Assembly (NCBI RefSeq): GCF_008831285.2
Contig: NC_045138.2
Coordinates: forward strand, 15,347,934-15,411,933
Length of the DNA stretch: 64,000 nucleotides
DNA from: Nymphaea colorata
Taxonomy: Eukaryota; Streptophyta; Magnoliopsida; Nymphaeales; Nymphaeaceae
Direction: 5' to 3'
Position numbers and translations under genes: made by a program. Of the stretch, positions 16,531 through 62,700 are shown one piece after another (positions within the stretch are counted from its first letter, which is position 1; each line of letters starts with the position of its first letter). A model generated the notes under the pieces. It saw only the letters and a list, made by a program, of their open reading frames with translations, did not search any database and had not been told where the DNA came from.

Positions 16531-16540
16531 ATTTATAAAA
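16531..16540 (-). promoter_or_regulatory. Possible TATA box of the aspartyl protease
   Basis: The minus strand reads TTTTATAAAT about 130 bases upstream of the protease start codon, a usual distance for a plant core promoter with a leader of about 100 bases. It is near-palindromic, so the orientation is inferred only from the gene. Confidence 0.35.
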
Positions 16541-16720
16541 GCGATATCTCATAAAACAACCGGATCATGAATCAGGGAAAACGGTTTAGACGATCCGAGC
16601 CATGGGGGATAGGGCAAAGGGGGGTAGCCTAGTAATTCTACTGAAGAGCTCGGGGTGAAGAAGCGACGGCTGCTCTCTGTGTGTGTGTGTCTGTGTGTGT
16701 GTGTGGACCACGGATGGCGA

Positions 16721-25600: not shown

Positions 25601-26612
25601 ATCTCCAACGTTTTGGTTATTATCCACTATCTAAAGTTCCGACTATCATGATCTCCCACTTCCTTGTTAAACCATATCAAAGTCCAACTTGTGGATACGT
25701 AAACAACCACAAAACAAGCGTTACCTTCAAAAAATGTGCAAAAATCAGATAATGGTTCACATGGCACTCGATGACAATTTCAGCTGGGATGAACTCAAAA
25801 AACTGAAGGTGATAGAGAAGACCTGCTACTATACAACCTTAAGTGGCAGTAGAAAGATGACCAGCCAACTAATGCCAGACGCTATTGATCACTAATTCTG
25901 ATGAATAGAAGTGCCGCTTAATAAACCTGGCCGTAGTAAAATTTCTCGATTTTGTATCAAACCAAACGAGAATAACGTCCGCTCAAGCGAACTGCCTATC
26001 GCTCATAATCCAGAGGGTCAGCCCAAGATTATCCTGCTTGCAGCAGGAGAAGGGCCGTTTTCAGTTGCGTATCTTCTTCTCTCCCACATTCTCAGATGAA
26101 ATATAGAAAGGCAAATTCAGATATACAGGATACAGTAGTAAGCAACTCTCAAGAACACACATTTCCCCAAATTCGACACATGAGCACCGCAACAATCGGC
26201 GCCGCGCAAAATCCACCAAATCCAAGAAATTGAATTCGACACGAAATAACCAGAAAAACAGGAAGACGGAATTCTCAGAACCAGACTAAGATTTCCTACA
26301 AACTCCAAATCCACATACATTTACTATGAACTACCAGAATCAGGGGCAATAACGCTCAAAAAATCGACCTGTATAGAATGCGGAAAGGAGACCGATACTC
26401 ACAGCCTTCACCGAGAAGCTTCTCCGCGAAGATGTCGAGACAGGAAAGCGGGACCTGACGGTCTTGGAACGTAGGTCGACGGCCTTGCGAAGGCCATGGA
26501 AACCCTGAGGGATGACGGAGCGCTGAGGAAAGAGCTTGTTGGAGGAGACGGCCGCAAGGGGATTGGAAGAGAGGAGGGAGGAGGAAGCCGGCGCCGCCGC
26601 CATTGCCGCCAT
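22657..26612 (-). CDS. BAS1: Chloroplast 2-Cys peroxiredoxin BAS1, copy 1 (7 exons)
   Basis: Thiol peroxidase that reduces hydrogen peroxide and alkyl hydroperoxides in the plastid stroma, recharged by NTRC or thioredoxins. Exons, in transcript order: 26403-26612, 25266-25340, 24769-24850, 24584-24663, 23107-23232, 22885-22998, 22657-22773. Phases close exactly and give 267 residues, the usual length. Residues 1 to about 69 are a Ser/Arg-rich transit peptide. The peroxidatic Cys is in [12 protein letters not shown] and the resolving Cys in [14 protein letters not shown]. The GGLG motif (SGGLGDLK) and the C-terminal YF motif (KEYFAAI) mark the overoxidation-sensitive class. Intron 3 uses a GC donor (ACAG|GCAAGT). 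Intron 4 contains a recent 0.33-kb tandem duplication. The start at 26610-26612 is the first in-frame ATG; a second lies three codons on. Copy 2 is at 44595-48325. Confidence 0.95.
23315..23996 (-). repeat. Recent tandem duplication inside intron 4 of BAS1 copy 1
   Basis: A unit starting GAGTATGCAGAATGCATCGG and ending near CACGTCAAAGTTCTG occurs at 23315-23670 and again at 23671-23996, with only a few substitutions and a different GA-run length. The first copy also carries an extra internal duplication of about 28 bases (ATTTTGATATAACTCATATA and following). The corresponding intron of BAS1 copy 2 (about 45330-45570) has a single, more diverged version, so this duplication is younger than the gene duplication. 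Confidence 0.92.
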
Positions 26613-28050
26613 TTCGGGAACGCCCGTAAAACCCTAGTAGCTGGCTCCTACTGGCTAGGCTTCTCCGCCCTTTGTAGCGACTCCACTCTCTCCCACAGTC
26701 CAAGTGAAAGGAGGGAAATGCCGGTAAGAGGATAAGGAGGGGAAAGGTTGGTGGGACGAGGATCAGCGGCCCTATGCCCGATAAATCAATTACCAATCCT
26801 ACCCCTCAGCTTTCCTGGTAAAGGCATCGAGATGGTAAAAGAATCGTTTTACCATCTCAGTAAATTGATTTCCTTTCCGATTAAATTAGTAACAAAATTA
26901 ATAGATGTTTGATTCCGAACTTTTTGTATACAGAAGAACATGTTTCTCGTATCTTTGTTCCCTTCTTATGGTTAACATGTAAACTGCCCTGGGTAATTTA
27001 GAAGGTTATAAAATGATAGAAACTTATCCCGATCGGGGGTGGAAGGTGAACTACAAGCTCGGGTCGGGTTTATTCAAGGCCCCGGACCACAGTCAGTTCT
27101 CTCGAGCAAGCCTACCTTTTACTAAGGCCGTAGAAAAATGCCTACAGTTTTCTAACTATGACCTGCCCAACCATGTACCACCTTTGGTTAATATCCGATT
27201 ATTTAAATGCCACTTTCAGCTGAAATAAACCGTGGTGATTCCGTTCCAATAATTTAACGTAGAAATTTTATCAACAAAAAATATGTGTTAACGAAAAGGG
27301 AAAAAAAAAAGTTTTAATTTCTTAGACCGAGATTCTAGAAGCAACACATGGTAGAATCGCGCAGATCCATAAATAGTTTAATTTCATTCACAGGATTTAG
27401 ATCCTTACCTTCCGCGTTCCACTTCATATGACAGGAACATTGGGCAACGGGTAATAAAAAAGGCGACAATCATTTCCGTGCCACCAAGTTATGCAATGTA
27501 AATAAATACTACCATGAATGTTGTTTTAATAAAATTTCGTCACATATATGTGATCTACCAAGACTAATTTGATAAAATTGGCCGTTTAATTATCCGTTCA
27601 CAATCCAAAGATATGTTTTTCTACATCACACATTGTGTCCTTATGTCAGGATCAATTTTGCGCCTCATGCCACTAATTTAGCATTAATTTTATTATATAT
27701 ATATATATATATGCGCATAAACACTCATGCGTTCCCTCATTAACTGAAAAAGGTTGGCTTCCAACTACCAGCTATCTAAATTACATCTGTATGAAATTTT
27801 AAGTTTGTTTTTACAAAGAGATTGCGTAAGGATGGGAGACTTTTGTTGCTCACCTAGTGGGGCGAAGCTAGGAATTTTTTAGTAAAAAGGCCAAATTATA
27901 TATTTCAAAGTCATGACTGGGATCAAAGTATAACAAAACAAATCCTTTTTTTATCAAAAAGAATTTTTTTTTTTTTTTTTGGTGATGAGGATCCTTTGCT
28001 CACCCAAGCGCATGAAACCGAGAGGGTAGTGCTGTTTTCATGTTTCATAA
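26613..28050. other. Upstream region of BAS1 copy 1 and spacer
   Basis: The first 150-200 bases are presumably leader and promoter of BAS1 copy 1; a telobox-like AAACCCTAG lies at about 26625-26633. I saw no clear TATA box. Further right there is an A-rich tract near 27300, a TA run at about 27695-27712 and a poly-T tract at about 27965-27980. The open frame at 27013-27228 has no recognised domain. Confidence 0.45.
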
Positions 28051-40331: not shown

Positions 40332-41677
40332 AGCAGACGTGCCGTACATGTCGGCACGTGGGAGTGGGGTGGGGGGAACACGAGGCCTCCCACACCCCAC
40401 GTCTTTCCCGCCGCTTCTTCGTTCTCTAGGGCCTAGGCTTTCTCCTTTGGCGGCAGCGACGTGGTTATTTTTTATTTGATGTCGTTGGTGTACTTAAATC
40501 TGGATTTGGATTTGGATTTGGATTTAGATTTAAACCCATTCATTTCACTGAGAACGAAGATGCATCTCGAAATCTAAAAGATGCGAAAACTACAAAAACA
40601 AGGAACTATCAATTTACAAACATATATTATACCTTATAAAAATATAACATTGGCAAATACATTTGTGTATAGTTACAATATTTTCAATAGGAGCACATAC
40701 TTTTGAATGTACCCCCGATTCGAAGCACGACTTATGTGCAAGGGAATATAACAGGGGAGAGGGGAGTAGAGGCTACACATTGCTCAAGGCAGGACTTGGC
40801 TGCTCACATGTATATAACATAAAATATTGGTTAATGTCCACCCTTGGACCTCGGCTTACATATGCCTCCCCAGCATTCTACAGCAGTCATGGGCACGTAT
40901 TCTTTTCTAATTTGCCCAAACCACCTCTACTACTCCATGCTCGCTCTTCAATTTAGACTCGACTATCCATTTCCTTCCTGTTATCGGTTCATCTTTAATA
41001 TATTTAACTGCCTTAGATCCGACCCGTATTTCTCGCCCTCCTCCTCAACATTTCCAGCCTTATGGCATTAGAAAACAGCGTTGGAAGGCTTATCGAGAAA
41101 TGAGAATTCATTACTGAGCTTCATGTAACGCTGGACTGTCGATGGTGCCCTTACTTTTTTATCGGTTAACTTCACTGCAGAGCCCAAGGTTTAGAGAAAT
41201 TGAAATATTTTATTGAGCCACTGATATGGTCTCTACCAAATTTGGTTAACTCCATATGACCTGGAATTGCTCTCACCTGGCCCCATTTGACGGTGGAGAT
41301 TAAGATCCGACTTTGAAAGTTGAATTGGATATGCAAAAAAATTGTTATCGCTATCCCATTTTCTGACTCTGTGTGATGTTGCTCGAAACCATTCTGTTCC
41401 AAGTTGTATTTGGATTTCAATTTTTTTCCCCCGTCTCGCTGATTAAAAGTGATTGGATTTGGATCCGTGTCAAGTCAAACCGGATCCGTGACATCCCTCC
41501 ATTCACTCCGCGTTGGGGATCGGACTTCCAGCCGGTAACGAACTCGATCCAAACCGACCCGCCTCTTGCCGTAAAAGGATTACGGGGCGAGAGATGGAGA
41601 AGGGGAGGTGTGTGTAGGGCATCGTTTCTGGGCATCGAGGTAAGCGCTTCCTCGATTCTTGTTTCTTCTCTTCTCTC

Positions 41678-41722: not shown

Positions 41723-42842
41723 CAATCTCAGGTTTGAAAAATTTTTCCTCTCTCTCTCTCTCTCTCTCTTTCGCGTCCTCTGGTTAGGACTTCTTCTGGT
41801 GGGTTCGTATCGGTTTCAGGCCAAATGGGTGAATTCTAGTGGATATGTTCCTGTTGCGCTTTTTCTTTTGGTTCTGTTGGGGAGAAATAGTTTCTTTCGA
41901 TTGCCTAATGGGCACCAAATATTCGACAGAATGATCCAGTGAAATGTTGTACCACGTTCTGCTTTATTTCTACTAATTAATTGAACTCTACGATTCGAGG
42001 GACGGTATTGAACGCCTTAATTCTTCTTATATGGAACTCTTGAGAAACTGCTGTCGCTTTGCTACTGTTCCACGAAAGAGCTCGGAAATCATGCATCAAC
42101 ATGACCACTTTTCCTCCCATTTGAAGGTCAATTTAGAATATGTGTGTGTGTGTCTCTGTGTCTGTGTCTGTGCCGGCTCAGGTTTCCTTTTCCACTACTG
42201 AACAGGCCTTCCTGAATTGAGCATCTGTAAAGTATCCCTTAATGTGGTGCTTTCCAATTGTTATGTCATAGATGACCAGCCCATCGATAAAATGCATTCT
42301 AAGTGTGTTCCTCACAGTTTACCGGCATTTACTTGCCATGTCTTCCTCTTATGCTGTGTGTTGGCCTTGTTGGGACTTCGAAGAACGGGAATTGATCTAT
42401 GACTGGTTTTTTTCCATTAATCAAATCACACGGATCACCTGGTTGACTGCCTGCCTGTCGTCCTGAATTTGTTTTTCACCTTAGCTAATGTTTTTCTTTC
42501 CCTTTTGAATGAGTTGTCAAGTCTTTCATGCGTGAATTGAGCATCCTGTCTTTTTGTTAATCTGAAACATGTTGCACTGTAAGTGATTCAAGTTGTTACT
42601 CTCGTAGATGCATGTCATGTGTTCTCATATGCGTGGGCTTATCTCATTTGTTCTAACTGCTCAATCTTGCCCATTTTAATATTCACTGGTGTTAATTTTT
42701 TAGTTTATTACTACAGCTTGTGATATTTTTAATCCTTTGGTAGCAATTGTCAGGGAAGCTTCTCTGAATTTCTGGTTTTTAAAAGCAAGTCTTCTGACTT
42801 GATGCTTACTCATGCTGCACTATTGAGTTGATCTATTTAGAC

Positions 42843-43076
42843 ATGGGGAACAAACCGGCAACACCAAAGAGGGATGAGATTCTTGTCAAAGTCATGCCTC
42901 CGATTGATCAAACTTTGGTTCGATGGATTGCTCGGGATGTTGATAGGATTTATGGGTTTGTTCCGAAGAAACCGCGTGCAATAAAACCACCTGAGCATTA
43001 CATCGAGTACATGCGATTACAGGGATGGTTGGATGTAGATTTGGATGATGCTGAACTGGCTCGCTTGTTAAAGTAA
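42843..43076 (+). CDS. Small conserved plant protein (77 aa), unnamed family
   Basis: A 77-residue frame starting MGNKPATPKRDEILVKVMPP and ending in DDAELARLLK. I recognise the pattern (PKRDEILVKVMPPIDQTLVR, then PPEHYIEYMRLQGWLDVDLD) as a small, strongly conserved plant protein of unknown function, but cannot attach a trustworthy name. It is charged, has no signal peptide or membrane segment, and shows no cysteines. The start is well supported: an acceptor, ATCTATTTAG, ends at 42840, two bases before the ATG, and pairs with a donor (GAG|GTAAGC) at 41640 downstream of a GC-rich leader. The gene therefore has a 5'-UTR intron of about 1.2 kb (41640-42840), a common arrangement in constitutively expressed plant genes. 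The whole coding region is in one exon. Confidence 0.85.
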   Translation: MGNKPATPKRDEILVKVMPPIDQTLVRWIARDVDRIYGFVPKKPRAIKPPEHYIEYMRLQGWLDVDLDDAELARLLK

Positions 43077-44100: not shown

Positions 44101-44594
44101 CCCTGACGACCTTTTGAGTTTGCCAGACATGTACTAACCGCCCAGTGCACATTCTTAGAGCTACAGCACGTACTTTGACTCGCTTTAAGAATCAAGCATC
44201 TGGTGCCAAGCAGGCCAACTTGGATATCCTGAAGATAATCCATCGAAGGAAATGTAGCAGTTAAGCATCGGCGTAAAAATGGGGAAAAAGTCCCTTCAAG
44301 CTCATGAAATTATCTGCATTCAAGCTTTATTATCGATTTGTAGAATGACCAAGAGAAAAGAAAATACTGGATCACCTTAGCGTGTGGTCAGAAAAACGAA
44401 ATTCTTCTTCCAGAGTGGAGCAAGCTAAGGAAGAAAAAAGCGATGCTTGATATATCAAAGAGTGGAATAGCTATCAAAAGTTACAGACAACGCCTGGTTG
44501 ATACATGGCTCGAAATCCCCATGAACATACGAAAATTGGAAATGAAACAAAACTTCCACAGGGATTTTGGAGATGGAAGTTTACCAACGTGTCA

Positions 44595-47500
44595 TCAAAT
44601 TGCTGCAAAATATTCTTTGCTCAGCTTAGGGTCTGGCTTCATGGATTTCTCCCCAGGCTTCCATCCAGCAGGGCAAACCTCATCAGGATTTTCTTGGACA
44701 TATTGCAATGCCTGTTAAATGAAATGGAAGATATGAATTTTGTTCCATGTAACTAGCGAGCAAATAAAGTCGAAGCCTCAAGGTCAAGGGAAAGAAAAGA
44801 GGAAGAACAAGAAATCTTAAACATAACCTGCAGTGTCCTCAGTGTCTCGTCAACACTTCGACCAATAGCAAGATTGTTTATCGTTGAATGCTGAATAACA
44901 CCTTCCTTGTCAATGATAAAGAGCCCTCTCAGTGCGATGCCCTGGCAATTAGGGAAAATTAGAATAATTTCTGTAAGCCACAGACGATCCTAAGAATTAT
45001 AGTGTGAAAACATCATAAGGTAAATGTTCAGGGGTGCCGTTAAGCAACTCCCATTCCCGTACCTGTTCTGGGATCAGAACCCCATAGGACTTTGAAATTG
45101 ATTTGGTTATATCAGAGATAAGAGGATATTTCAAATCACCAAGGCCACCAGACTTTCTGTCAGTCTGAATCCACGCAAGATGGGAAAACTGTAGCAAAGA
45201 TGAAGAAAATCAGGAACTAGTAGGTCAGAATACATCAAAATAAGAATGCGGAAGATCAGGCTGAAAAATCTCCCAGAGAGGCCAGACAGCTATCATGCAC
45301 ACGTTTTATTCAGATTTCAAAATAGAGAGTAGAGACCAATTGCAAAAGATACTACACTTCGGAAATTTGGATTCTTATAAAAGACTAGTGCATGATAGCT
45401 AATGGTGTCAAAAACACTCGTCTCAAATAACCAGGTGGCATTTTTAGGCTTCTGTAGATATAAAACTCCATGCTCAGAAAGATACAAAATCGTCTCCTTC
45501 AAAAAGTTTCCCACATTCAGTGGAGATAAGGGACATAATTCTTTATCACAAAACTACATCCAAATTCACATTATTAGAGTATGTACTTGACAACAACAAA
45601 AAATTGACTACATTTCTGCATTTAAAACATCAATCTCTTTCAAGATATGCCTTTAGAAGAGTCAGATCACAATCCCAAGCATGACAGAAAGGATGTAGAT
45701 GGATCAAACTGCAGTCAGATATTGGCCCTACCAAGTTTGACTTAATTGGATTTAAGTTGATGGACTCACAAATGATTTTCTGAAGCCAAACCCAATTTTC
45801 AAATGAGTCTAATTGGATTTGGTCCACGGGAGCCCAACCAAAACTCACAAATTCCTGGTAAGAAGACTGTTAAGACTTAAGACAGACATCATCCAGTCAA
45901 AAGCCAAAACTTCACAAATTAAACAGTTTCTAGAACCACAGAGAAAATTATAGTTCAGAAAATAACAAGTGAGATTCATAAAAGCATGAACAGTGAACTT
46001 TTAGGAACTTACCACGCTGTCCACTGAAACACCCAGTACTTCTGTGTTTAACTTCTCAAATTCAGAGTACCGGTCACTGAATGCAGTAATTTCTGCAACA
46101 TGGAGAATGTAATGCTTCAGTATTACATGCATACTCTTGGAAAGTTCTTGCTAAATATAAATAAATGATCCTGGAAAGCGATGGATTTGAATCTTGCCTG
46201 TTGGACAAACAAATGTGAAGTCCAGTGGGTAGAAGAAAAGAATGACATACTTCTTCCCAATATAATCAGAAAGCTTTACCTAATGACATCAATAAGTTTT
46301 TAACCGATTTAGACATAAAATGCAAAATAATGCATGGGCTTTATGTAGATAGTGAAATAATAACACTTAGAACGACGATAAAAAGCAAGTAAATATCATT
46401 ATGTTTGAAAGCCAAATTCGTAAGAGGCCTTTCACTGATGCTGATAAATGTTGATCATTGAACTTTTTGACTCCATACTGAATATTTATTTACATTAATC
46501 TAACTGTACATTTACCTATTCTAGGCCTCAGGAAAAAAAAAATAAGTAAATGATGAGCAATATCAAACCGCAAAGGTATAATAATGCGATGGATGATTGC
46601 TTGAGTTCTGAACAATATTGCTCCACTTAAGTTTAAGCTTTAAAGCACTACCTTCTAAACTTTTAGAATTTTGAAGTTATTAATAAAACCATAAGTAGGT
46701 AGCTCACATTGATAAACTCCTGATCGAAGACAGCCTCAGCGTCAAAATCTGGTGCTGTGTTGCCAACTAGTGGCAGTTGGCTCTGTCATAATTGCAAGGT
46801 TAGCAGATTTAGTACAATAATAAGAACATGATCATCATAAATAGAAAATGACAAACAAACATACATACACACAATATAGAATATTTTTAATCGGAATTAA
46901 TGAACTAAACAATGTTCTAGATATTTACAACATTGCTTAGTTCAATAAATGAGATGGAATAAAACCAAAAAGAAGTGGAGAAGGTGAAGACCTCCTGCAA
47001 CCTTAAGTGGCACCAAAAAGCTGATGATGGTTTAATTAAGAGAAATACCGAACGCTGTTAAGCACTAATGCTTATGAACAAAGAACATCTGGTTTCACCA
47101 CAAGCTTGTGTACTGGACCAAATGACTTGCATTAGTTTATTGAGCTTTAAATACGCTCGGGTTTATTCATTCACTACAACTCCAGAAGTATTCATCCACT
47201 CATGTGGTCGCATTTAAAAAGGAAAAACAAGGAAAAGATAAAGATGAGTAAGACGGAGAAGTTCAGCAATGCAGCTAACATCGGTGAACAAGAAATTATC
47301 GCCATCAATAACATCGTTGAATCTCAACGATAAATGAAGATAGATTCAGCTTGTCCTTGTCTCCGTTAATTGCATTCTAGGGAATGTTGAGAGTAACACT
47401 TGCCAAAATAAAAGGCATCCTAGAAACAAATCTGGACAAGGTAAAGTTGTCCAAATCTGTACACTCTAAACGAGAACATCAGGCCGCTCAAGCAACTTGC

Positions 47501-47678
47501 CAACTTAGGGTCCAGAGTTTGGCCAACCCGTGAGGCCAAGACTATCCTCGTATTCTCCTTCCAAAAGGAGAAAGGCCGAGGGCGTTTCAGATGTCCACAC
47601 TCACTAAAATAACTTGTTTAGAAACCAACCCAATCCACCGATCATTCAAAAATAAAAGAAACTTCGACGGTGAGTAGC

Positions 47679-47750
<72 letters not shown>

Positions 47751-48325
47751 ACGCGGCACGTCAACCTCTCAGCCCCTGATCCTTCTTCTTCCCCATATCA
47801 TCATCTTAAACTTGGACAGCAGTAAATTCAGATATGCTGAACCCATGTAAGCAACTCTCAGAACGCATATTTGACAAATTCAAATTACTTCCGCAACAAT
47901 TAACACACACCGCACAAATTTTATGAATTAAAAAAAAAAATCCAACAAGGAAACGAATTCCACAAGAATTAACACTCAAAACATGAACACCAAATTCAAA
48001 GCACCAAACTGAGTACTCTGAACTCTAAATCAGCATGCATTTCCTAGCTACCGAAATCAAGGGAAAGAAGCACACAAATCAACCCTGTACACAGAGCGAA
48101 AAAGGGACCGATACTCACAGCCTTCACCAAGAAGCTTCTCCGAGAAAACCTTGAGACAGGAAGCCGTGATCGGATCGACTTGGACCGTAGATCGATGGCC
48201 TTGTGGAGACCGTGGAAGCTCTGGGGGATGACGGCGCGCTGAGGGAACAGCTTGGTGGAGCAGAGGGCGCCGACGGAGTTGGAGAAGATGAGGGAGGACG
48301 AAGCCACCGTTGTCATTGACGCCAT
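44595..48325 (-). CDS. BAS1: Chloroplast 2-Cys peroxiredoxin BAS1, copy 2 (7 exons)
   Basis: Second plastid 2-Cys peroxiredoxin, with the same function as copy 1. Exons, in transcript order: 48119-48325, 46708-46782, 46198-46279, 46013-46092, 45063-45188, 44828-44941, 44595-44711. Apart from exon 1, all exon lengths are identical to copy 1; the product is 266 residues, intact by reading. The peroxidatic (FTFVCPT) and resolving (DEVCPAGW) cysteines, GGLG and YF motifs are all kept. By eye the mature parts differ at nine positions (for example NTAPDFD against [23 protein letters not shown] against [16 protein letters not shown]), while the transit peptide differs much more. Intron 3 again uses a GC donor (ACAG|GCAAGA). 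Introns, 3' flank and part of intron 1 remain alignable with copy 1, so this is a genomic duplication, not a retrocopy. Intron 1 carries a long TA microsatellite. Confidence 0.95.
47681..47755. repeat. TA microsatellite in intron 1 of BAS1 copy 2
   Basis: About 58 bases of pure TA followed by GTATGTATGTATAC. It is absent from the matching intron of copy 1. Confidence 0.9.
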
Positions 48326-50378
48326 TTCGGAAGTTTCAGTAGAACCCTACCACCACTCCGCTCCGTAATTCCAAGAAATGGGGAGCGTGAATCTCACTAT
48401 CACCGCGCGCGAAAGAGAGAAAAGGAGGGAAACGCTGGTGGAAGGACAAGCGGTCGGACGGAGAGGGAGATATTGCCAACAATGCCCCAAATATTTTACT
48501 GATAACGAATAGAAAACGAAAATGGTCCAAAATCAATTTTAAAACATGTGAACACCGCATCGGCTCGCGTTAGTATTAGATCCGACTGGCCATTTCACCG
48601 CGATCATCGCATGGGTTCATATTATTGCGTTGTATTGGTGGAGGGATTGTTAATGTATTTGGGCAGGATGGTGGCGCATTCACTTTACATCATCAGTTTC
48701 ATTATTTTTTTGGGCATTATTCTTGCACCTCACATTAGTGCGTTATAAGATATTAATATATCTGATTTGGATTTGAATAGCATAGTCAACCAAATCATTT
48801 AGAAAAAATCAGATACGAAAAAAAAATAGTATTTGATTAAAAAATCAAATCAGATTCAAATTTAAGAAATGACATCTGTTTAGATTCAATTTTGGATTCC
48901 GCATACATAATATTCAATCAGATTCAAAGTCAGATCCATATCGAATTTATCACACATTCAATGCTCTTGCATTTTAAAAATGGCCAAATTAGGCTCAAAT
49001 CGGATTCAGATATGTATGTAAAAATCAAAGTTATATCATATTTGGATTGTGAAACCATATTTTAGATTTAAATATGGATGTCTTTTTTTTGTTCGTATCC
49101 AAATCCGAATATGTGAATGCACAGATCCAATTAAGAGTATATCCAATTCAAATTAGATCGAACATCCCTAATCCTTTTTCTCACCTGTGAAATTGATGGA
49201 CGGCTTGTTTTGATTTGAAAATGGGCTTTTAGGATTAATTTTGCCTCATTAAAACTATTTGATGTAACTGGTCGTACATCTAGCACCAGAGTCTAACGTT
49301 GCCTTCTAGCAATGAAGTCTCTCGATAGGGCATCCAAAATTCACAAATAATTTTTACAAGTATATAGTGCTTTACTCATGGATTACAAATAATTTTTACA
49401 AGCCATTTTTTTCAAAACAGTGTTCTCTTATTTGCTTTGGTAAATATTTCAATAAAACTTAATTGTAATTGATGCTCTGAGCTATTATCGTGTTTTGATT
49501 GTCAAATTAATTCACAGATGTGATTCATTATCAAATTAATTCACATATGTGATTCATTATCAAATTAATTCACAGATGTGATTATTATTCTTTTCACTAT
49601 CGAATACTTCAGATGGTCTTTATGTGCATCTCACATCATCAACTTCTATTGAAATTCAAGCGTACTTCAGGTGGTCATTTATATATATATATATATATAA
49701 AATGCTCCTCACATATTCAAATTGTATTGAATTAAAATTGAAGCATACTATAGGCAAATAAATTATTCACGGACTAAAACCCACTGGTTGGTCAAAATCT
49801 AGCCAGCAAGGGTTGAGCAGCTGGCGCAACCCAACCATTTGAAAGGGTGAGTAATGAGTATCGTTGATGGTTTATCGTCTCCGTGGATTGCTCAGTGGAA
49901 ATACCATTTGTCGTTAAATCAATGAAAAAATCATGATTCAAGCAGCTTGCAAATATTTATTTGACCGATGATTAAAGTGCATATCTAAAAGCATATAGTC
50001 GCTTCAAAAATAATAAACATCACCATGGCACTTTTCAGCTTATTTTCAGTTCTTTTCTTTTAAAACAACAATAATAATGTTAATAAGTGCTTATAGATAA
50101 TATTAATGAAAGTCTCTTATGGTTTACAAAAGAACAATATAAAACTCTTTTGTCATCCAAATAAAGGCAGAAGTGGACTCTGCACTACACCAACAGTCGT
50201 AGGTTGAAGCTGGCCAATAGTTGGCAGTACCAAAAAAAATTGCTAACAAATGACCTCATAAAAAATTAAAAGAATATAGCAGAATGCATGCACTCAAAAA
50301 TTTTACCAAGTTCAAGAAACAAGTGAAAGAATGTGTAGTTCAATAAAACCCACCTTGAAATGAACAATAAAGGAGTAG
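48326..50378. other. Upstream region of BAS1 copy 2 and spacer
   Basis: No supported gene. The stretch at about 48770-49180 is unusually rich in variants of GATTTGGATT and AATCAGATTCAAAT, a degenerate repeat that also appears near 40.5, 41.4 and 60.2 kb. A TA run lies at about 49680-49699. Confidence 0.45.
49502..49582 (+). repeat. 29-base tandem repeat, about 2.8 copies
   Basis: TCAAATTAATTCACAGATGT plus nine further bases repeats at 49502, 49531 and 49560 with one visible base difference in the middle copy. Confidence 0.9.
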
Positions 50379-51135
50379 CAATTCATCTCAATGAAAACCC
50401 AAGTTGAAATAAACAACAAAGCACTAGCACTTCATCTAAGTATACACCATGTCTTATCCAAAAGAAGATGCTCAGTGGAGTACTTCTGAAAGGAATCCCA
50501 CGAGTTCAGTGTTCATCAAGCTTTAGTTTCAGGACAACATTACCAGCGACCAATAAGACATTTTCAACACAGAAAACCATCTATCAGTACACATGCAAAG
50601 GAAAAACAAGCACAATGGACAAGCAATGCATTTAAGAGGCACTGTGTCTTTATCCAAAGGCAGCTGCTCATCTGTATACTACTAGAAGGAATCACGAGTC
50701 CATCGTTGTCCATGTTTATCATGGAGGTCCGACATTAGTAGAAACCTGCAAGAGATCTAAAACATAGCTTAATAAAAGCTAAATAATAAACATTCAAGCA
50801 CATAAAATTAATTGGAACTCATCTATAAACATGGAATTGGCAACATTCCAATTACTCAACATACTGACTGAACAAACTATAGTTGCAAATACAAATGTAA
50901 CCTCCATTCTCATGAGCACAGGTATCAATTCATCTCAATGAAAACCCAAGTTGAAATAAACAACAAAGCACTAGCACTTCATCTAAGTATACGCCATGTC
51001 TTATTGTCCAAAAGAAGATGCTCAGTGGAGTACTTCTGAAAGAAATCCCATGGGTTCAGTGTTCATGAAGCTTTAATTTCAGAACATTACCAGCGACCAA
51101 TAAGACATTTTAAACACAGAAAACCATCTACCAGT
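50379..51135. repeat. Pair of roughly 200-bp direct repeats, plus a diverged third copy
   Basis: A unit beginning CAATTCATCTCAATGAAAAC and ending near AAAACCATCTA(C/T)CAGT occupies 50379-50588 and 50936-51135, about 90 percent or better identical by eye. A diverged partial copy lies between them at about 50608-50730 (ATCCAAAGGCAGCTGCTCAT and following). The unit itself contains an internal pair of about 47 bases. The second copy ends where the inverted E2F-promoter duplication begins. No open frame of note; the function is unknown. Confidence 0.85.
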
Positions 51136-51870
51136 TGTTCCACCATTCAGCGTCAAGAAACCACTCTCCTCCTCCTTCAGTTTGATCGCATCGTACTAGC
51201 TTTCGAATTTCTATAATCCCTTATCATTCTTCATCGAAAGCTCAGGGCGCCATTGGGCGGTGGATTCTGAGATCACAAAGAGATAAAAGGGCGGGAAACA
51301 GAAGAAGGCGGAGATCATCTGCAGCAGATCGGTGGATGGAAGAAACAGGCAGGATCAACTAGTGCCCGATCGGAGAAGAAACGGAGGGGGATTGAGAAGG
51401 AGGGGAAAGCGAGGGAAGGATGGAGGGAAGAGTGGGGAGGTTGAAAAAGGCTAAGAGAAGAAAACAAGGGGAAAAACGCCGAATTAAAAGTCCACTGTGG
51501 AGGGAAGGTGAGAAACGGCCCAAGCGGGAGAGCAATTTAAAAAACGCTTTAGAGACTTGTATTTATCTTTTTAACGTTAATTTTACCGAAAAAGTGTCTC
51601 CTTGACGGTCTTCGCCTTGGTTTTTCTCTCGCCGAAAAAGCACCTCTTTGCCTTTGCAAATTACGAAATATCATCATGTGGTGCAGTTCATACTTGTTCC
51701 CCAACTGCTCTTCTAGTAATTATCGGCTTGAAATACGCTTTAGTTCGGCAAAAATATCGTGATAACGTCCTTTCACATCCGATTTTTATCTTACAATTCT
51801 CTTTCTAGATAATGGCTTTTATTTGAGAGATTAAATTTAGAAGTTTAAATTGAGATATTAAATTTTCCCA
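51133..51870 (-). repeat. Inverted duplicate of the E2F promoter, leader and start codon (left arm)
   Basis: Read on the minus strand, this segment aligns along its length with 52435-53156, the region that leads into the E2F gene. Shared blocks include ATTGTAAGATA, GGATGTGAAAGG, CGGTAAAAT, TTTCTCACCTTCCCTCC, TTCAACCTCCCCACTCTTCC, CACCGCCCAATGGCGCCCTG and GGTTTCTTGACGC. The E2F start codon is kept as ATGGTGGAACAA, against ATGGCGGAACAC in the gene, but the frame closes after 19 codons and no further E2F exon follows. It is a 5'-end duplication of a host gene with no coding future. The E2F-type site is kept (GGCGGGAAA at 51290-51298). Confidence 0.85.
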
Positions 51871-52434
51871 GCATAAATGTCGTTGTACACATGGAGGAAA
51901 TAAAATATTTGTTTGGTAGATTTGGTTTTTGTGTCGGTCCCTCAAAACAAGTATTCATGACGCCATTTTAGATAAAGATTTTATTTCTTTCGTGTATAAA
52001 ACAGCATTCCATTTATGAAATTGCCTGATAATAGGAAAATGAACGTTAATAAAGCAAGCACATCTCAAAAACAAAGAGAAATTCTAAAATGTTTTAATCT
52101 AACTATCATTAAGGGGCATCCCCAACAAATTAACCTGAAAGCACATTACAATGTTTGAATGCTCTTTTTTTTTTTGCAATTAGACAAACATGATAAATAG
52201 CCAGGATTCATTCACATAAACTTAAGAAACATCACTTTTTCCTCAAATCAAGCTGGGGCAAAGAGTATTGACTCCAATAATAAATTAAATTTCCAGAAAA
52301 TCTTGAAAGATTTTTTAGGAACTCCAGTAATCATGTCCCTGTCATACATGTAGAGTTACGAATCCAATTATCGAGACAAATAATTCCAAATCTGCTAACT
52401 CATAAGCTGGAAAAAAGAAAGAACATCTCACACA
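51871..52434. other. Spacer of the inverted duplication
   Basis: About 0.56 kb of AT-rich sequence between the two arms. I see no gene, and similarity between its two halves is not convincing, although faint matches (GCTGG-AAAA) next to the arms suggest the homology once reached further in. Confidence 0.4.
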
Positions 52435-53138
52435 GTTAAAATTTCATCTCTCAAGTCAAACCTTCTCCTTACTGGGAAAGTTTTATAAAAGTCAATCCAC
52501 AGAAAGGAAATTGTAAGATACATTTTGGATGTGAAAGGGCATTTAAAAAAGCATCACGATATATTTGCGGAACTAAATCGTATTTAAAAAAACATCACTA
52601 AAAGTACCATCCGCATCACTTGACGATAGGATGGCATTTCGTAATTTGTAGGCAGACGAGGTGGCTTTTTCGGAAAGATAAAACTCCGATGTGGGGAAGG
52701 AAGAAAACTTATCGGTAAAATAACGTCAAAAACGTTAAAGAAAAATACATAAAACTTTTTTGTTTCCCACTGCTCCGCGGTTTCTCACCTTCCCTCCATG
52801 GGCCTTGACTTAATTCGGCGTTTTTTCCCTCGTTTTCTGCTCTACTCCTTTTTCAACCTCCCCACTCTTCCCTCCTTCCTTCCTTCGCTTTCCCCAACCC
52901 TAAATCTTCTCCGATCGGCACCGATCGATCCTGCCTGCTTCTTCCACCAACCGATCTGCCGCAGACGATCTTCACCTTCTTCCGTTTCCCGCCCTTTTTT
53001 CTCTCTGTGATGTCATAATCCACCGCCCAATGGCGCCCTGAGCTTTCGATACTAAGAATGATCAGGGATCCTGGAAATTCGAAGGCTAGTGCGATGCGAT
53101 TCAATTGAAGGAGGAGGAGACGGGTTTCTTGACGCAGG
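52435..53138 (+). promoter_or_regulatory. E2F promoter and 5' leader (right arm of the inverted duplication)
   Basis: This is the upstream region of the E2F gene and the partner of the reversed copy at 51133-51870; the homology continues about 18 bases past the start codon. It holds an E2F consensus, TTTCCCGCC, at 52985-52993, a telobox-like AACCCTAAA at 52896-52904 and a CT-rich leader. The telobox is not kept in the left arm, whereas the E2F site is. I saw no convincing TATA box. Confidence 0.7.
52985..52993 (+). promoter_or_regulatory. E2F-binding site TTTCCCGCC in the E2F leader
   Basis: An exact match to the TTTSSCGS consensus, about 146 bases before the E2F start codon. E2F genes often control themselves or one another through such sites. 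The same site survives in the inverted copy (51290-51298, reverse orientation), which argues that it was under constraint or that the duplication is fairly young. Confidence 0.6.
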
Positions 53139-55577
53139 ATGGCGGAACACCGTGGAGTCGGTCCCCTTCAGCGGCAGCAGACCGGGCCCATTGCGCAGCC
53201 TCTCAAGAGGCACTTTCCTTTCTCGTCTTCGAAGCCACCATTTGCAGGGCTGAACGATTACCACCGGTTCCCTGACGGTAGTCGCAAGGGAGTTGCAGAA
53301 GAGGAGGAGGCTGATGCGATCATCGTGAGGACCCCGGTAATTGGTGAATCTGTAAAATGGGTTGTTTTTGGGTTTTTTCCCTTTTTTTTTTTCCTTGGTC
53401 GTGCCGATTCTCTGTTGACTGAAGGCATCCGAGTTCAGATATCTACTTGTTCCCCAGGCTGGACTAGGTTTGGTGGAGACTATCTTGATACGAATGGCTA
53501 TGATAGTTGTGTGTCCAGCAGCTTAGATGGTAGCCGCGTATGTAGAACTTACGCACGTATACATTTTTCATTGCTTGTGTAGTTATTGAATTAATGGCAC
53601 TTCACGAACGAAGTCCATGAACATGATCTTCTCAGATTACTAGGTAATTAGGAGGTAGAAGAATTAAGAAGTAAGGATGAAAATAGAGATAGGCTCACAT
53701 TTGAGCAGGAAGCTTATTGCAGCATTTTTATCTCTTTCGCCGCGCAATGTCTAGGGAGAAAAAAATAGGAAAAAGATAAACAAAAATAAAAAAAATTAAA
53801 CTTTACTGGTTCAGGTTCAATAAATTAATTAAAAGGTAGCATTGCCGTAGTCAGGAGTTAACTATCTTTAGGTGAAAACATAGATACTGAGACAGCCATC
53901 AGAGCTATTTCTCAAAAATGTTAGCCTTTATATTCCATTTGAAATATGAAGTGGTTATACCTAGCTACATTATGAATAAAATCACCTGAGATAATTTCTA
54001 TCCTTTGATTTTGTATGTTTGATAACTTTATTGATTCTAGCAGCTCAAACGGAAAGCTCAAGTGGAAGAACATGAAGCGGAATCTAGTGATTACACAACT
54101 GGTCAAGGTTACTCTGCGGTCAACAGTCCCATGCACACACCTGTATCAGGAAAGGGTGGAAAGATTCATGTTAGGGGAAAGGTCTCCAAGAATTTGAGAT
54201 TCGGGCCACAGACCCCAATATCTCCAGATGCTGGTGAATCAGACCGACATTCTCATTCTACCCGATGCTTTTTTTTTTTTTTTATCAAAATTAAGAATTA
54301 TAATGTGTCATTGATGAGGAGCCTTCCTCCATTTCTTGTAGGATCACCATCTACCAGTGGACTAACACCTGTGGGGACATGCCGTTATGATAGCTCTTTA
54401 GGTAATCGAAGAGGCAAAGGCTGAAAATTGTGTAAAAAATTATCTCTTGGTATTCTCCTGGTTTAGATGCCTCATTGCTTGTAGGTCTTCTAACGAAGAA
54501 GTTCATCAATTTGATAAAGCAAGCTGGAGATGGTGTCCTAGATCTTAATAAGGCAGCAGATACCTTGGAGGTAACCAAGACTAACTGTGACTTCTCATCT
54601 GCTTACGGAAAGGTACTCAACCGACATTTATTCCTGATGTACAGGTTCAGAAAAGGCGGATATATGACATCACGAATGTGCTAGAGGGAATAGGACTCAT
54701 AGAGAAGAAACTAAAGAACAAAATATGTTGGAAGTAATAAGTCTTTCATTTTTATTTTAAAACTTATTCTGTCTTCCCATATTTCCTTATTTCTCACCAT
54801 AAAAGAATGTCAGCTTACTTCATAACAATACGCAGGGGTTTTGACGGTTCCAGGCCTGGGGATGTTGACAGCGACATTACATTTTTACAGGTTTGAGGAG
54901 TTTTCCAAGTCATTGTTTATTTACTCGACACCTGTCAACTGAGTTTGTTTTGAACCACCAGCCTATAGAAATGCAGATGAAAGGTAGAGGTGTGGATAGC
55001 ATTGCGGCATGTTGTCCTCCCCTGAAATGCCTTACCAATTATTAGTGACTTACAGTGCAGGCAGCGAAAGTTTAGTAACAAACGAAGAGTGGCCTTCGAG
55101 GCAAGAAGACCAATGCAGGAACAGGACAACCCCAAACGCAAAATTATAGCCTTTGGGTCAAAAGTGATGTTTCACTTGATTTGTGCATGTCCTGTATGCT
55201 TTTGACAATAAAGCGCCTCATGCATGCCAAAGCAATAGTACTGTGCTTGGTGGAGACCAAGTCTTTGGTCTTTTAGTTCTGCCATTGAAGTGGTTCAGAT
55301 TTGAGACCTGATTTCCTTTTTTTCCGAATGGCTGACATGTTTAAAGGCATGAGGTCAGATGAAAATGTTTTGATTCATTACATTGTTATTGTGATTTAGG
55401 CGGATTTGGAAAATCTTGCCGTTGAGGAGCGTAGGCTAGATGACCGCATAAGGTTTGATCAATTGCTAGCTGCTTGGATTTATGCAAGAGAAAGTAAAAA
55501 AGGAACTAACACCCTGTTTCTCACAGTGAAATGCAAGACAGATTGAGAGAACTAAGTGGAGATGAAAACAACAAAAA

Positions 55578-55612
<35 letters not shown>

Positions 55613-57074
55613 ACACAATGCACACTCAGAGGGGATTTAAATTTTCTTCTCCTAAATTTTGTCAATCATTTTTTTTTCCCAATGTTAATCGTCTCACCTG
55701 TCAGGCTGCTTTATGTCACCGAGGAAGACATAATGGGACTTTCCTGCTTTCAGGTAATGATATTCATCTCTTGCCCCATAACTTGAACATCCCTCTTTCT
55801 TCAAAATTTCAGAGACTGGATAGCGTTGCAGCTTTTGAGTTGCTTTTACCATATTTTTCTTTTTATAGAAGGGCACTCTGATTGCAATTAAAGCACCTCA
55901 TGGCACAACACTGGAGGTTCCGGACCCTGATGAGGTGGGTAGGAGTTAGGACCATTAAAGATGATAAGGCAAGATGGCTCAGATCAATATTCGTTCGCAC
56001 TAAGCTACTATTATTCATTTCCATTAAGTTTGTTTGCAGGCTGTTGATTATCCTCAGAGAAGATACAGAATGGTCCTTAGGAGTACCATGGGACCAATCG
56101 ATGTTTTCCTTGTAAAGTAAAGCATTTTTTCTGTCTCCTGCATATTTCTAATAGCAGATTTGAATAACTCTGACTAAAAACTACTGTAATGTTGTTCTTA
56201 GTGGTTATGTGAAGTTTGAGGAGGTGGATGGTGTTGTTGAGCAGCAGGCGCTACCACCTTTAAGTGCTCCAAAGGCAGTTTCTACTGTCCGTCAACCACA
56301 GATGTCAACAAAACCAGACATGGAAACAGATGTGATAATTAAGCGCCAAAACTTGCAAACGACTTTTCCTGAGACGAATAGCACACAGGATCCTGGGGGT
56401 ATCATGAAGATCGTCCCCTCAGATATTGATGTAAGTTAGTTTCCTTGAAGCCAATATGGAGCGTGGAGGATACATAGAAGTATGATGTATATGTTTTGAA
56501 GAAGCATTTCATTTGAATATTAGAGCACATGCATTTACAACTTACAACTTGATACCAAATAAAATGCTTACTGCTAATGGTACCCATTTATGTAAACAAA
56601 TGCACCCCTGAAAAATGTCTTTTTTTAACTTTACGAATCCCACTCGTTCACTTCGGAATGTTCAGCATAGTATACTTGTTTAAGGCCTTCATTGAGGACC
56701 TCATTTTCACTTTGTAGAGTGAAGACTATTGGCTGCACATGGATCCAGGTGTAAGCATCACAGATATGTGGAAGACAGATTGTATCCTTTTATGTCCGTC
56801 TGTTAATATTTACTATTGTTTTCAATGATTTCCAATTCCTTCCGATCGCAGATATACATACCTGTTTGCTATTTGTATCACTGATTTCCTTTTTATGCCA
56901 TATCTGTTATTGTTTTACTTCACTCGTTACCCAGCTGAAATTTGGGATGAGATGGATAGCTTGCAAGCAGACGGATTTGGAATCGACAATGTCAGTTCAC
57001 CCCGGCAGCTTCTATCTTCTAATTTTATTGAAGAGCCACATAGCTCGCACATCCCTACCCCAACTAGAAGATGA
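53139..57074 (+). CDS. E2F: E2F transcription factor, E2FA/E2FB-like (14 exons)
   Basis: Cell-cycle transcription factor that, with a DP partner, binds TTTSSCGS sites and is held by retinoblastoma-related protein. Exons: 53139-53336, 54041-54233, 54342-54401, 54485-54570, 54645-54733, 54836-54890, 55400-55452, 55527-55577, 55705-55753, 55869-55934, 56040-56116, 56202-56430, 56718-56781, 56935-57074. Phases close to 469 residues, within the family range. Domains: a variable N-terminus with LKRKA basic patch; winged-helix DNA-binding domain ([15 protein letters not shown] to [20 protein letters not shown], about residues 143-210); leucine-rich dimerisation helix and marked-box region ([32 protein letters not shown]); C-terminal RBR-binding block ([18 protein letters not shown] then EIWDEMDSL). 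This makes it a classic E2F, not a DEL type. Exon 2 has a NAG-NAG acceptor (TCTAGCAG), allowing loss or gain of one Gln. It converges on the DUF1279 gene. Confidence 0.93.
55579..55611. repeat. CT microsatellite at the 5' end of an E2F intron
   Basis: The donor of E2F intron 8 (AA|GTACTCTCT) opens directly into a run of about 16 CT units. Confidence 0.85.
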
Positions 57075-57533
57075 AGATAAAGGCACAAATTGATCCGGAA
57101 AGGTTGGCATCTCTTTGATTTATCTTGGATTATCCAACTTAATTTTAAACACAAATGGGTGTAACGAAGGAACCACCTATGCTGCTTGTGATTTGGACAG
57201 GATTTGCTCGACAGCATTCAACCGCTCTTCATGTCTTCTTCTCGTGGTGTGATGCGGAATTTTAGACGAATGAGATTCGATTACTAATGCAGCAGAGAGT
57301 GGTGCCTTTTGGAGTTGACTAACGAGAGTCCAATATGAGTTACTTGAAGACATCACAAGTTTAAAGTCCTTGGTTCATTCACTTGCTTAGACTGATTTCC
57401 AGTTGGGCTTCTTGATAACAAGAAGCATGAATTAGATAGAATGAACACGAATATGCGAAGCTGAGATGCTTATGGGAAAAGATATCAAGGTGTACAAAAC
57501 AAGATGAAGTGCAGAGGAGTTGCATACAAGTAC
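57075..57533. other. Shared 3' region of E2F and the DUF1279 gene
   Basis: About 460 bases separate the two convergent stop codons. The stretch must hold both 3' untranslated ends. I saw no strong separate terminator or gene. Confidence 0.5.
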
Positions 57534-58698
57534 TTATTGCTTCTCTTCTCCCTTTGCGTTCTTTCCTATCCAACCCGCAACAATGGGAGTAAGGGCTACT
57601 GTTGGCGGAAACCTGATAGGAGATGCAGCCTTGTGTGCAGCATATGCAAGTGCAAAAGTACCAACTTTTTCTCCAGTCTCGCCCGCTGATATTCCAACCT
57701 GCACAGGAAGTTATTCTTTTTCATGATGTTTATCTTGTCTAGGAGCAACATTGCTGCACTATGGGTTTCATATGCAATGAAGGTGTCCATACATCATATA
57801 TGTAATATCTATCTGATGTTTATTGTATCTCATACCTTCTGCAGCAATGCTTGTACATCAATACCGGCACTCACAAGCACGTAACAGAGTCCGAAAGACA
57901 CTAAGGAGAGAGAGATTGATGTTGCTAAGTATGCTCCTCCATATTTTGCTAACAGCTCTTTAGCCTCATCTGTCTTAGATTTCTTGCTATTTCCTTCTTC
58001 ATTCTTGTCTTTAGAGCTAAATATCTAAAGGAAAGAAAAGGGAAAAATAAATCAGGCCCAGTAGGTCGCATCGTTAGAAGCTCAAGTTTGGAAAATAAGA
58101 AGGGTGGAGAACATTGCATCGGAAGAAGTGTGGAGAATTTGGAAGCAAGGAGGAACCGATCAGGGGGAAACGTGAAAATAGGAAAGGAACAAAAAAGTAG
58201 TTATTCTTCCAACATTCGGCTGGCCAAGTGTTTGCAAAATCTACCCAACTTCATGAATTCCCTTGTCTGTCGCTCGTTTTTGCAATTGGAAAAAATAAAA
58301 TTGAAAAGACATCGTGAAGTTGGTTTCCGCTTGGCATATTCGACTTACCGGTGAAAACACACTCTCTTCATGTACTAATCTTCAACTAGAGGCTATTTAA
58401 GCTGTGTCCATACCTTCCAGAGGCCAGCTTCGAGGCCGTACTTTTGGGTGACCTCCTCTGCGGTGCTATCCGTCTCTTTGGTATCCTGAAGAGCCCGGCA
58501 CCTCAACAGCCTCCTTCCCTGAGCCTTCCTCCTCCTTGACGTTCTGTGAATGGCATATGACGGAGACGGCAATGAAGCAGTAGAAGAAAATTGAGGAAGG
58601 CTGGTCGAGTGAGAACGATAAGTTTGATGGGCATGCAGAGAGGGGGAGCCATGGCATTCGAGAAATGAAGCAGACAGAACCCTGGTGCAGGAAGCCAT
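57534..58698 (-). CDS. Chloroplast DUF1279 (FAM210-like) membrane protein (3 exons)
   Basis: Exons, in transcript order: 58414-58698, 57836-58024, 57534-57698; all junctions are phase 0 and give 212 residues. Residues 1 to about 65 are Ser/Thr/Arg-rich without acidic residues (MASCTRVLSASFLE...), a likely plastid transit peptide. The DUF1279 domain follows: ELLAKYGGAYLATSISLSLV, then SFGLCYVLVSAGIDV, which forms a hydrophobic probable membrane segment, and FALAYAAHKAASPIRFPPTV with TPIVAGWIG at the end. The Y-G-x-A-Y-L and A-H-K-A-x-S-P-x-R-F-P-P motifs are diagnostic of FAM210/DUF1279 proteins. In plants these are predicted plastid proteins whose exact role is not established. A CT/GA microsatellite (58703-58735) sits in the leader immediately before the ATG. 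Confidence 0.88.
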
Positions 58699-58702
58699 GG
58701 CC

Positions 58703-58735
58703 AGAGAGAGAGAGAGGGAGAGAGAGAGAGAGAGG
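58703..58735. repeat. GA/CT microsatellite in the DUF1279 leader
   Basis: Two GA runs split by GG end four bases upstream of the DUF1279 start codon, so in the transcript they read as a CU-rich leader. Confidence 0.85.
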
Positions 58736-58739
58736 GTTT

Positions 58740-61700
58740 TAGTGATTTAGTTACGATGCATCTTTTCCGTTCATTGGAGTGTCTGTTAGTAGGAAAGCTG
58801 ATGGCGAAGAGAAGGGATACTTGGCGGAAAATCCACCGAGGGCACAAAGGATCGAAGAAAGGGGGGGATTATTCTCCCGATGGGTATCGCTTGCATGCGC
58901 CTCCCTTTCATATAAGTTTGATGAGGCACTGTCTCATCCACGCTCATAAGCATTAAATATATTAAAAAACAATTGACACCTGAGACGGGGCAGGGCACCC
59001 CTGGATCGGCCACAAAAGCAAATCGGTTTGCACCAACTGCTACTGTTACCAGACGGGTCGCAGAAACAAGCACAAAAATCCACATAGCGGGAAAGCGCAT
59101 CTGCTCCAATACTAATTCATTCTGAAGGCCACCTCCTAACAAGGATCGATCCAATAAAAGGAATATGCAAACAAACATTAAGTATACAGTGTCTGTTAGT
59201 AAACATTTTGAAAAATATAGTTGGGCTCCTGTTGAAGATATGGTTTGGTCTGTTTAAAAGAAAATTTTTATCTCCGCCTCTGGTTTGCTACAGCTTTTAT
59301 ATCAAAGGCAAGTATCTGAAAGAGCAAATTGGAGATCTCCCCACCGATTGATGGTAGACCCTCAACCTAACTTTTTTTTTTTTTTGAAAATATATATCAC
59401 AAAAAATGAATCCCGCACGGGGATATGAACATTTACTAAGAAATCCTAAAACAAACTCACCATAATTAGAGATCAGTAGGCGGCCTATCACTTTCCATCC
59501 ACATGGGCTCACTATATTTGTTTGTGTTTGGCAGAAGTAACAGTATGTTAAAACTCCCGGCATCATGTATAGAACAATAGCAGATACGTAAAATAGTAAC
59601 ATAATATAAATGAAAGGATATTGACAAAGTAACAGATACATAACAGAATGTTAAAACTCCCTTTCCAAATAAACGCTGAATTATTGAGGGATCCCACCCT
59701 GCCGTCCATGTCATATCTCATGGTTCGACAATCATATAAAATATATAAACAAAATAAACGGGAAGAGAAAAAGCAATGGAAGGCGCATCCACTTCCGGAA
59801 AATGCCAATAGAGTGTCCAACGAACAACACATTTCTTTAAAAAGATTTTTTTTTTTTTTTTTTTTGAAGAAAATGAGGCGTATGTGTGACACGCTATACC
59901 AGCACCACCACTACATTTATCAATCACATTATTAAAATACTAAACTTGGTTTAAAACATTGAATTGATAATAACAGAATTATTAATTCTTTTCCAGAAAA
60001 ACCAAAAGGGCAATCTAATTCCGGGACATGTTGCCGATGGAGAATGAGACAAAGGCCTGGCTGCTCCTTTTTTTCCGGGTAGTCGGCGCCACCAGCTAAA
60101 AGCTCATGGACGCCGGGAACCTGACGCCGAGGATGACAACGGGTCAGTAACATCCCATTGCCGAACCGAAAACCGACCATTTTAGTCGGATCTGGAACAA
60201 AATATGGATACCAATGCTAATCGAACTTTGTCTCGAATATCTGATTTTGAATTCAAATCGAATCGGATTTGGGTTCAAGTTTAAAAATTCAGGTCCTAAT
60301 CTGAATCAAAATTTGGTAGTATTCAGGGGTGGAGTTCAATTTTTTCTTTTATGAAACATTAAATATATAGTTAACATTTTCGATTGAACTCGAGTCAATG
60401 ACCATGGGGCTGACCCATATAACTGGACCTAGGTATATCCAAATCCAACTATTGAAAATAAGAATTTAGAGTTGACTCCCTACGAAGACCCTACTTATCT
60501 TAGATCCAGCTTACACCCAACGGTTTGGATCACTGGCCACAAAATCATGGGACCTCGTTTCTCTCCCTGCAAAATCCCGTAGGAAAAGGACACCCATCAA
60601 ATAGGAAATCATGTGTTACGCATGAAAAAGTCCTTTCCCCACAAATTGTTCCATTATGTGGGTAAACTTTTTCCTACCGTGAAAGGTTTGACGCCGAGGA
60701 TCATAGCATAGTTGGTTGGTCTGAGGAACGCGCAGTTGATGCATTTTAGTTTGATTTCTATGGGTGGTACTTTTTTACACGCCAAAAGTATTGAAAAGTG
60801 TACCATAAACCATTCATGTCCAAAAGCAATCAAAGACTAGGGAGTAAGAGAAAGAGGGAGGATGTCTCTCAACTCTTGCTTTTTGTCCCTAAGTGAGACT
60901 TGATTTTCCTACCTTGTTTTCTTACCTGGAATAACGATAACGATAACGATAACTACGTGGAAAGGCCACTCACTTTTTCATGTAATAATCCAAATCAGTC
61001 TCCAAGCTGAAATTGGAAAAGTATGTCAAGACCCTTGTTGAGAATGTGTTCACATGAGAGAAAGTGAGAGGGGGTTCAATCTTCTTCGTACAACTTTCGG
61101 GAAAGTTATAAGCAAAATTCTAGAAAAATCTTTTCTAGCTTTCTTTTTTAAGATTAAGATTCTGAGGCTGATTCCAAATCCTTAATTAGATCCTAAGTTC
61201 TTTACCAGATCTTACTAAATAAATTCAAAATCGAATAGATAGTTTAACATGTTCAATATATTTTCATTGCTAGAGTAATGTTCTTCCGCCAAATTTTCAT
61301 CCTATTTCCTGTGTTTTATAGTTTAAAAACTAAAAACATTTTAAACTAAAAAAAAAAAAACATTTTTCTACGTCCAGACGAATTGCCAACTCATTCCATC
61401 TAATTTGTAACTTAAAAAGATTTTGCTTTCTGAACGACAATGTGGGCCTTCCTAACTAGTGGATTCTTTCTCCTTTCCTTCGCTTTCCCGGGAAATAAGG
61501 ATCCCTCAGCAAACGGCCATTTTTCTTAAGAAAGAACATTTTGCTTGGAATAGAGGGAGAGATTCAAGATTTCTATTTTCTCAGGTTTCATTTTGCGCAC
61601 TTAGTCCCTGAGTTATACGCAATTGACACATTCGTTCCTCAATTATTCAGCATTTTTACTTTTCAGTAAATAAATCTTTTTGTGAACCATTTGCAGCGGG

Positions 61701-62700
61701 CTCTATTATGTGCTGAAGAACAGGCATTTTATTAGGCATGGTGGATTTTTTGTTTGATGAAATATGACTTCAGTGTGAATCACAGCAAAGGCCGTGCACA
61801 TAAGATCCTTCACATTCAAATATACTTTAAACAATTTAGCTGAGATTGTTCTTGTTTCACCATGGATCCGTGATATAAGTTCACTAGGATCTCAAATCCA
61901 CGGATTTAACCTTAAATCCCTGGTTTTTAACATGTAAAGTGGATTTAAGATCTGAGGCTAACAAAAACAACCTGAGTGCGGATTTCATATCAACTTCTGA
62001 CCTTCTCCAACATACCCATAAACAAAAAGTGGAGAAGAATTTGTTAATGGAAATGTGATGCGAATGAATTTGTCAATTGCATAAACTTAAAGCAAAACCC
62101 TTTTTGTTTTTCGAAAGAAACATTTTCTTGACAGTCTATTCACTTTAGAAAATTCAAATTGTTTTTAGTGGCATAGGATCAAAGTCTTAGCATCGAATCG
62201 AAGCCTCAGATCTCGTAGCCTATGACATCTCAATCATCTAGGGACCATGCAATTTTTTGTTCGGAGACACGTGATGAATCAAAGTCCATAGATTACAAAA
62301 GTTGATGAGACATCACAAATTTAAGACCTATCACCACTCCATCAAACTAGCAACATCGAAACCATATGCACTTTTCCCTGTTCTTTTCGACAAATAATTC
62401 CAATCAGTTTCATAGAAATCAGCTCAACCAATCAGTCTTGTTAACTTCAAAGAATGTGAAGTTCATATCATATATACAAATTTTCGTTCGTTATTCTTCT
62501 TATTGTGAAAAGAAGGGAAGAAATACCTTTTTTTTTTTCCTCACCCGAGCTTGGCTGATCTTAGGGAAGAGATAATGGAGAAATAAGAAAAGCAGGCTCT
62601 TATTTAGCGTTGGTCAGCCAAACGCTGGATGTGTATCGGGAATTTCGTAAAAATCTGGGACTCGTTCTTTAGATTATGCACAAATGCTTGCGCCTTGAAC
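58740..62700. other. Spacer
   Basis: The left few hundred bases are the upstream region of the DUF1279 gene. I support no gene further on. Poly-T tracts lie at about 59371-59385 and 59846-59865 and create spurious frames. A TAGCATAGTTGG word at about 60704-60715 resembles a polymerase III A box but has no B box. The region near 60190-60330 is rich in the degenerate GGATTTGG-type repeat. Confidence 0.4.
60931..60953 (+). repeat. ATAACG hexamer repeat
   Basis: Nearly four perfect copies of ATAACG. Confidence 0.85.

Follow-up and report, generated by a model that had tools for sequence, protein, structure and literature searches.

E2F proteins are regulators of the cell cycle, and a gene predicted to encode one occupies the plus strand of the window (the whole 64-kb stretch of DNA that was analyzed), with its coding part at 53139-57074. 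The gene model comprises 14 predicted exons, whose ends were chosen by eye and through all of which the reading frame stays open, and yields a protein of 468 amino acids. This protein matches the Pfam families E2F_TDP (PF02319, winged-helix DNA-binding; 4.9e-27) and E2F_CC-MB (PF16421, coiled-coil/marked-box; 4.8e-33), and a sequence search of the Protein Data Bank returned five matches, namely E2F4 (two), E2F5, E2F8 and E2F1. The model thus combines, in an open frame, the winged helix and the coiled-coil/marked-box region that define an E2F transcription factor. The 5' end of this gene, which we predict to be intact, is the right arm of an inverted repeat, and the left arm of the repeat faces away from it.

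The next gene in the direction faced by the left arm is peroxiredoxin-like (44319-48349, minus strand, start codon at approximately 48325). It is the second copy of a tandem pair and was recognized from its N-terminus and from its DNA similarity to the first copy (22382-26636, minus strand), the two being 72-76% alike over four DNA blocks in the self-BLAST. One frame of the first copy matched AhpC-TSA; scanning three frames of the second yielded no Pfam family. The N-termini of the two copies are similar to each other, and both look like those of plastid-targeted proteins. The window also contains an adjacent tandem duplication formed by 23315-23670 and 23671-23996 (356 and 326 bp, 89.9% identity in BLAST, 30 gap positions), an uninterrupted frame of 506 codons at 15031-16548 (minus strand) that matches TAXi_N, TAXi_C and Asp and represents a TAXi-type aspartyl-protease-like gene, and a frame at 42798-43073 that matches Pfam AtTam9 (1.1e-40). 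The AtTam9-family frame, the TAXi-type protease and the plastid-type N-terminus of the peroxiredoxin-like copies together suggest that the DNA comes from a plant. No tRNA genes were found in the window.

The inverted repeat next to E2F is real. Self-BLAST of the 64-kb window aligned 51136-51822 with 53149-52485 over 707 columns at 74.7% identity (gaps counted; E = 2e-123), and in a global alignment of 51136-51822 (minus strand) with 52485-53149 (plus strand) 539 of the 638 ungapped columns were identical, with 76 gap columns. The arm-versus-arm local score was 539, while dinucleotide shuffling of the left arm, repeated 300 times, gave a mean of 22.3 (sd 2.4) and a maximum of 31, which rules out a chance similarity between CT-rich sequences. 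Exact runs shared by the arms reach 34, 29 and 19 nt, the longest of which (53017-53050) is of mixed sequence. Repeat finding in 50000-54500 detected eight inverted pairs, six of which are collinear blocks of the two arms (22 to 134 nt, 76-95% complementary). A weaker inner extension pairs 51866-51839 with 52438-52466, with a score of 31 that was equalled in none of 500 mononucleotide shuffles. With this extension included, the left arm covers 51136-51866 (core 51136-51822, minus strand) and the right arm 52438-53149 (core 52485-53149, plus strand), and the spacer between them measures 571 bp (51867-52437). The preliminary description had proposed approximately 700 bp of inverted homology at a distance of 0.57 kb, reaching beyond simple CT-rich sequence; both the extent and the coordinates are borne out by the agreement between self-BLAST and alignment, and the mixed nature of the 34-nt run, as well as a score far above that of the shuffles, supports the latter point. 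Within the window, no further copy of the arms was found at E values up to 1e-10, and 51823-52484 has no other match at E values up to 0.001.

The right arm comprises promoter and leader of the predicted E2F gene together with its first 11 coding bases. Its inverted counterpart on the left includes the promoter, the CT-rich leader, the start codon and the E2F site. The homology spans the ATG (53139 in the right arm, 51146 in the left) and stops 11 coding bases further, in agreement with the earlier proposal that it covers all of these elements and ends within the first codons. An E2F-type site, TTTCCCGCC, is common to both arms, within an identical run of 15 nt; a motif scan placed it at 51290-51298 (minus strand) in the left arm and at 52985-52993 (plus strand) in the right arm, approximately 150 bp before the E2F start codon. 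A third site, at 40404-40412, lies outside the arms. The strict motif therefore occurs three times in the window, versus 0.32 times expected, and one of 100 shuffles contained as many; two of the three occurrences, it should be noted, are those of the homologous arms. The loose motif TTTSSCGC occurs six times where 4.9 are expected, a count equalled or exceeded in 39 of 100 shuffles, so that an enrichment of loose E2F motifs was rejected as being at chance level. The suggestion that the extra site could titrate E2F therefore seems implausible to us, although the strict motif is over-represented, mostly through the arms.

Leader, TTTCCCGCC and start codon are all retained in the left arm, which gives way after coding base 11 to an unrelated block of 214 bp that is itself duplicated. 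Repeat finding and BLAST located the first copy of this block, R1, at 50375-50588 (minus strand) and the second, R2, at 50922-51135 (minus strand, that of the presumed leftward transcript). They form a direct repeat with an offset of 547 bp and are identical at 202 of 211 ungapped positions; the edge of R2 coincides exactly with the inverted arm, and R2 is thus joined directly to the arm's coding end. The frame that opens at the left-arm ATG (51087-51146, minus strand) consists of 19 codons and a stop, of which the first three codons and two further bases are homologous to E2F and the rest is unrelated sequence. No significant E2F body was detected left of the left arm: tblastn of the 468-residue protein (E up to 10) produced two hits outside the gene, with E values of 4.9 and 6.8, and the best DNA match between the left flank (48400-51135) and 53150-62700 was of 20 bp (E = 0.076). 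On these comparisons, a leftover E2F body on the left was rejected for the window, and the structure first described, a second, leftward E2F-like promoter region with no significant match to the E2F body behind it, is borne out.

The two arms have not diverged evenly. Near the start codon, 323 of 368 ungapped columns are identical (Jukes-Cantor distance 0.133), versus 216 of 270 in the distal part (0.233), a difference with a Fisher p of 0.008 that is optimistic, the split point having been picked after inspection of the alignment. The ratio of the two distances is 0.58, with a wide block-bootstrap 95% range of 0.38-0.88. If the proximal part of the right arm were frozen by selection while the left arm drifted, the proximal distance should be approximately half of the distal one, or 0.116, and the measured value is close to what such one-sided constraint would produce. 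A neutral left arm would thus suffice to explain the divergence profile, with which constraint on both arms or gene conversion would also be compatible. R1 and R2, at a distance of 0.044, are closer to each other than the arms are. The block at the junction therefore seems to be the younger, and the junction would have been remodelled at a later time, except if R1 and R2 stayed alike through conversion. Regarding CpG, 42 aligned positions carry the dinucleotide in either arm and 19 of these in both; changes to TG or CA affect the left arm only at seven positions and the right arm only at four, and other changes number eight and four, respectively. A marked CpG decay of the left arm was rejected on these counts, which are only slightly lopsided and hence leave no clear mark of past silencing or methylation-driven decay in that arm.

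Taken together, these data probably reflect an old partial inverted duplication. Some 0.7 kb from the 5' end of E2F, running from the promoter and leader, with the E2F site, to the ATG and coding base 11, would thereby have come to lie head to head with the gene itself, and the duplicated neighboring block R2 may have reached the broken coding end through a rearrangement at a later time. The right arm would still serve the E2F gene, while the left arm would be an orphan promoter that faces away from E2F and is by now mostly a neutral relic; if active, it would give rise to a leftward, E2F-responsive RNA opening with the 19-codon frame. The structure itself, the open E2F frame over the chosen exons, the absence of a significant body match on the left and the E2F-type site in both arms can be read directly from the sequence; the neutrality of the left arm, the order of events and any transcription are what we infer from it.

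A different history is conceivable, but we hold it to be considerably less probable. A fuller E2F copy could once have stood head to head with the gene, its body being deleted later by an event that joined R2 to the leader. Such a deletion would account for how cleanly the homology breaks at coding base 11, at a block whose other copy starts 547 bp away, while the left body has left no significant trace in either the tblastn or the flank DNA comparison. This reading and the partial duplication differ in history alone, and the confidence placed in one therefore overlaps with that placed in the other.

It is unlikely, in our judgment, that the left arm works as a divergent promoter from which a non-coding, E2F-responsive RNA is transcribed leftward, or that it adds a regulatory element to E2F itself, although a divergent leftward transcript, as raised in the preliminary description, is possible. 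Leader, ATG context and TTTCCCGCC are kept in both arms, the proximal part is better conserved than the distal one (323/368 versus 216/270), and the strict motif is in excess (3 versus 0.32 expected, matched in 1 of 100 shuffles), all of which speaks for such a role. One-sided constraint, however, explains the divergence profile without any function of the left arm. Moreover, the frame from the left-arm ATG has just 19 codons, and the minus strand of 48350-51822 contains six other ATG frames of at least 35 codons, which are 35 to 74 codons long.

The inverted arrangement also raised the proposal that a hairpin RNA, and small RNAs derived from it, could silence E2F. According to PMC3237417, the model of Allen and colleagues, which derives plant microRNA genes from inverted duplications, starts from two neighboring inverted segments of one gene, either convergent or divergent, and the divergent form is the arrangement seen here. 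The predicted fold of a read-through RNA (MFE -937.6 kcal/mol, with no shuffle control) has 522 of the 687 bases of the left arm paired to the right arm, and the arms would thus be able to pair in one RNA, as in a microRNA precursor; 23 of 645 right-arm 21-mers occur exactly in the left arm. The extensive pairing stands, but the geometry disfavors silencing. The presumed promoters of the arms point outward, so that neither transcript would span both arms, and the leader of E2F would be in sense orientation in both predicted RNAs. A leftward RNA, if made, would consequently be unable to pair with E2F mRNA through the leader, and a hairpin would require a promoter outside the arms. A known RNA family was rejected as well, since no Rfam family reaches its gathering score in the window. 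We thus regard silencing of E2F through this repeat as very improbable.

Even less credible is an origin of the arms as the long terminal inverted repeats of a transposon, or from an assembly error. The long inverted arms enclosing a spacer speak for this reading, but the outer boundary on the right falls within E2F coding sequence, and the window contains neither another copy of the arms (at E up to 1e-10) nor one of the spacer (at E up to 0.001). The 99 mismatches among the 638 ungapped arm columns disfavor a simple assembly copy.

Least probable of all is the capture of the orphan E2F promoter, by way of a spliced leader, as a distal, S-phase-responsive alternative promoter of the peroxiredoxin-like gene, which would wire plastid redox defence to the cell cycle: the start codon of that gene lies 2.8 kb beyond the orphan promoter, and a pattern scan, narrow in scope, detected a single strong donor-like site (49187) on the minus strand of 48350-51822, which counts against such a capture.

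The inverted orphan copy of the E2F 5' end is real, and its significance is modest. If the left arm is active, it represents a natural copy of an E2F promoter split from its gene, in which the sufficiency of promoter and leader for cell-cycle expression could be tested, as could whether new divergent transcripts evolve from promoter copies placed head to head. If, as we judge likely, it is no more than a relic, it arose as an ordinary side product of local rearrangement.

Partial inverted gene duplications that leave a truncated 5' copy form a known general class, and we file the E2F locus, from its sequence features, as a probable instance of this kind of event. As in other members, an inverted 5' copy without the gene body lies adjacent to the parent: the inverted homology is significant and includes gene-specific sequence, and the rest of the gene is absent beside the copy within the window. 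Here, in contrast, the copy reaches no further than coding base 11 and hence duplicates almost nothing but promoter and leader, and its parent, a regulator of the cell cycle, has an E2F-type site ahead of the start codon. Among the literature matches listed, the same arrangement was not found in titles and the beginnings of abstracts, which does not prove its absence from print. With the plant microRNA model, as set out in PMC3237417, the locus shares two adjacent, divergent segments of one gene; it differs in that the presumed promoters lie within the arms and point outward. As to the regulatory site, TTTCCCGCC is given in PMC8008544 as E2FAT, a plant E2F/DP target motif, and rice E2Fs are described in PMC9749859 as activating, directly or indirectly, reporters with TTTCCCGC elements. 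Both arms here contain the exact E2FAT motif; the difference is that one of its occurrences belongs to an E2F 5' region copied in inverted orientation without its gene body.
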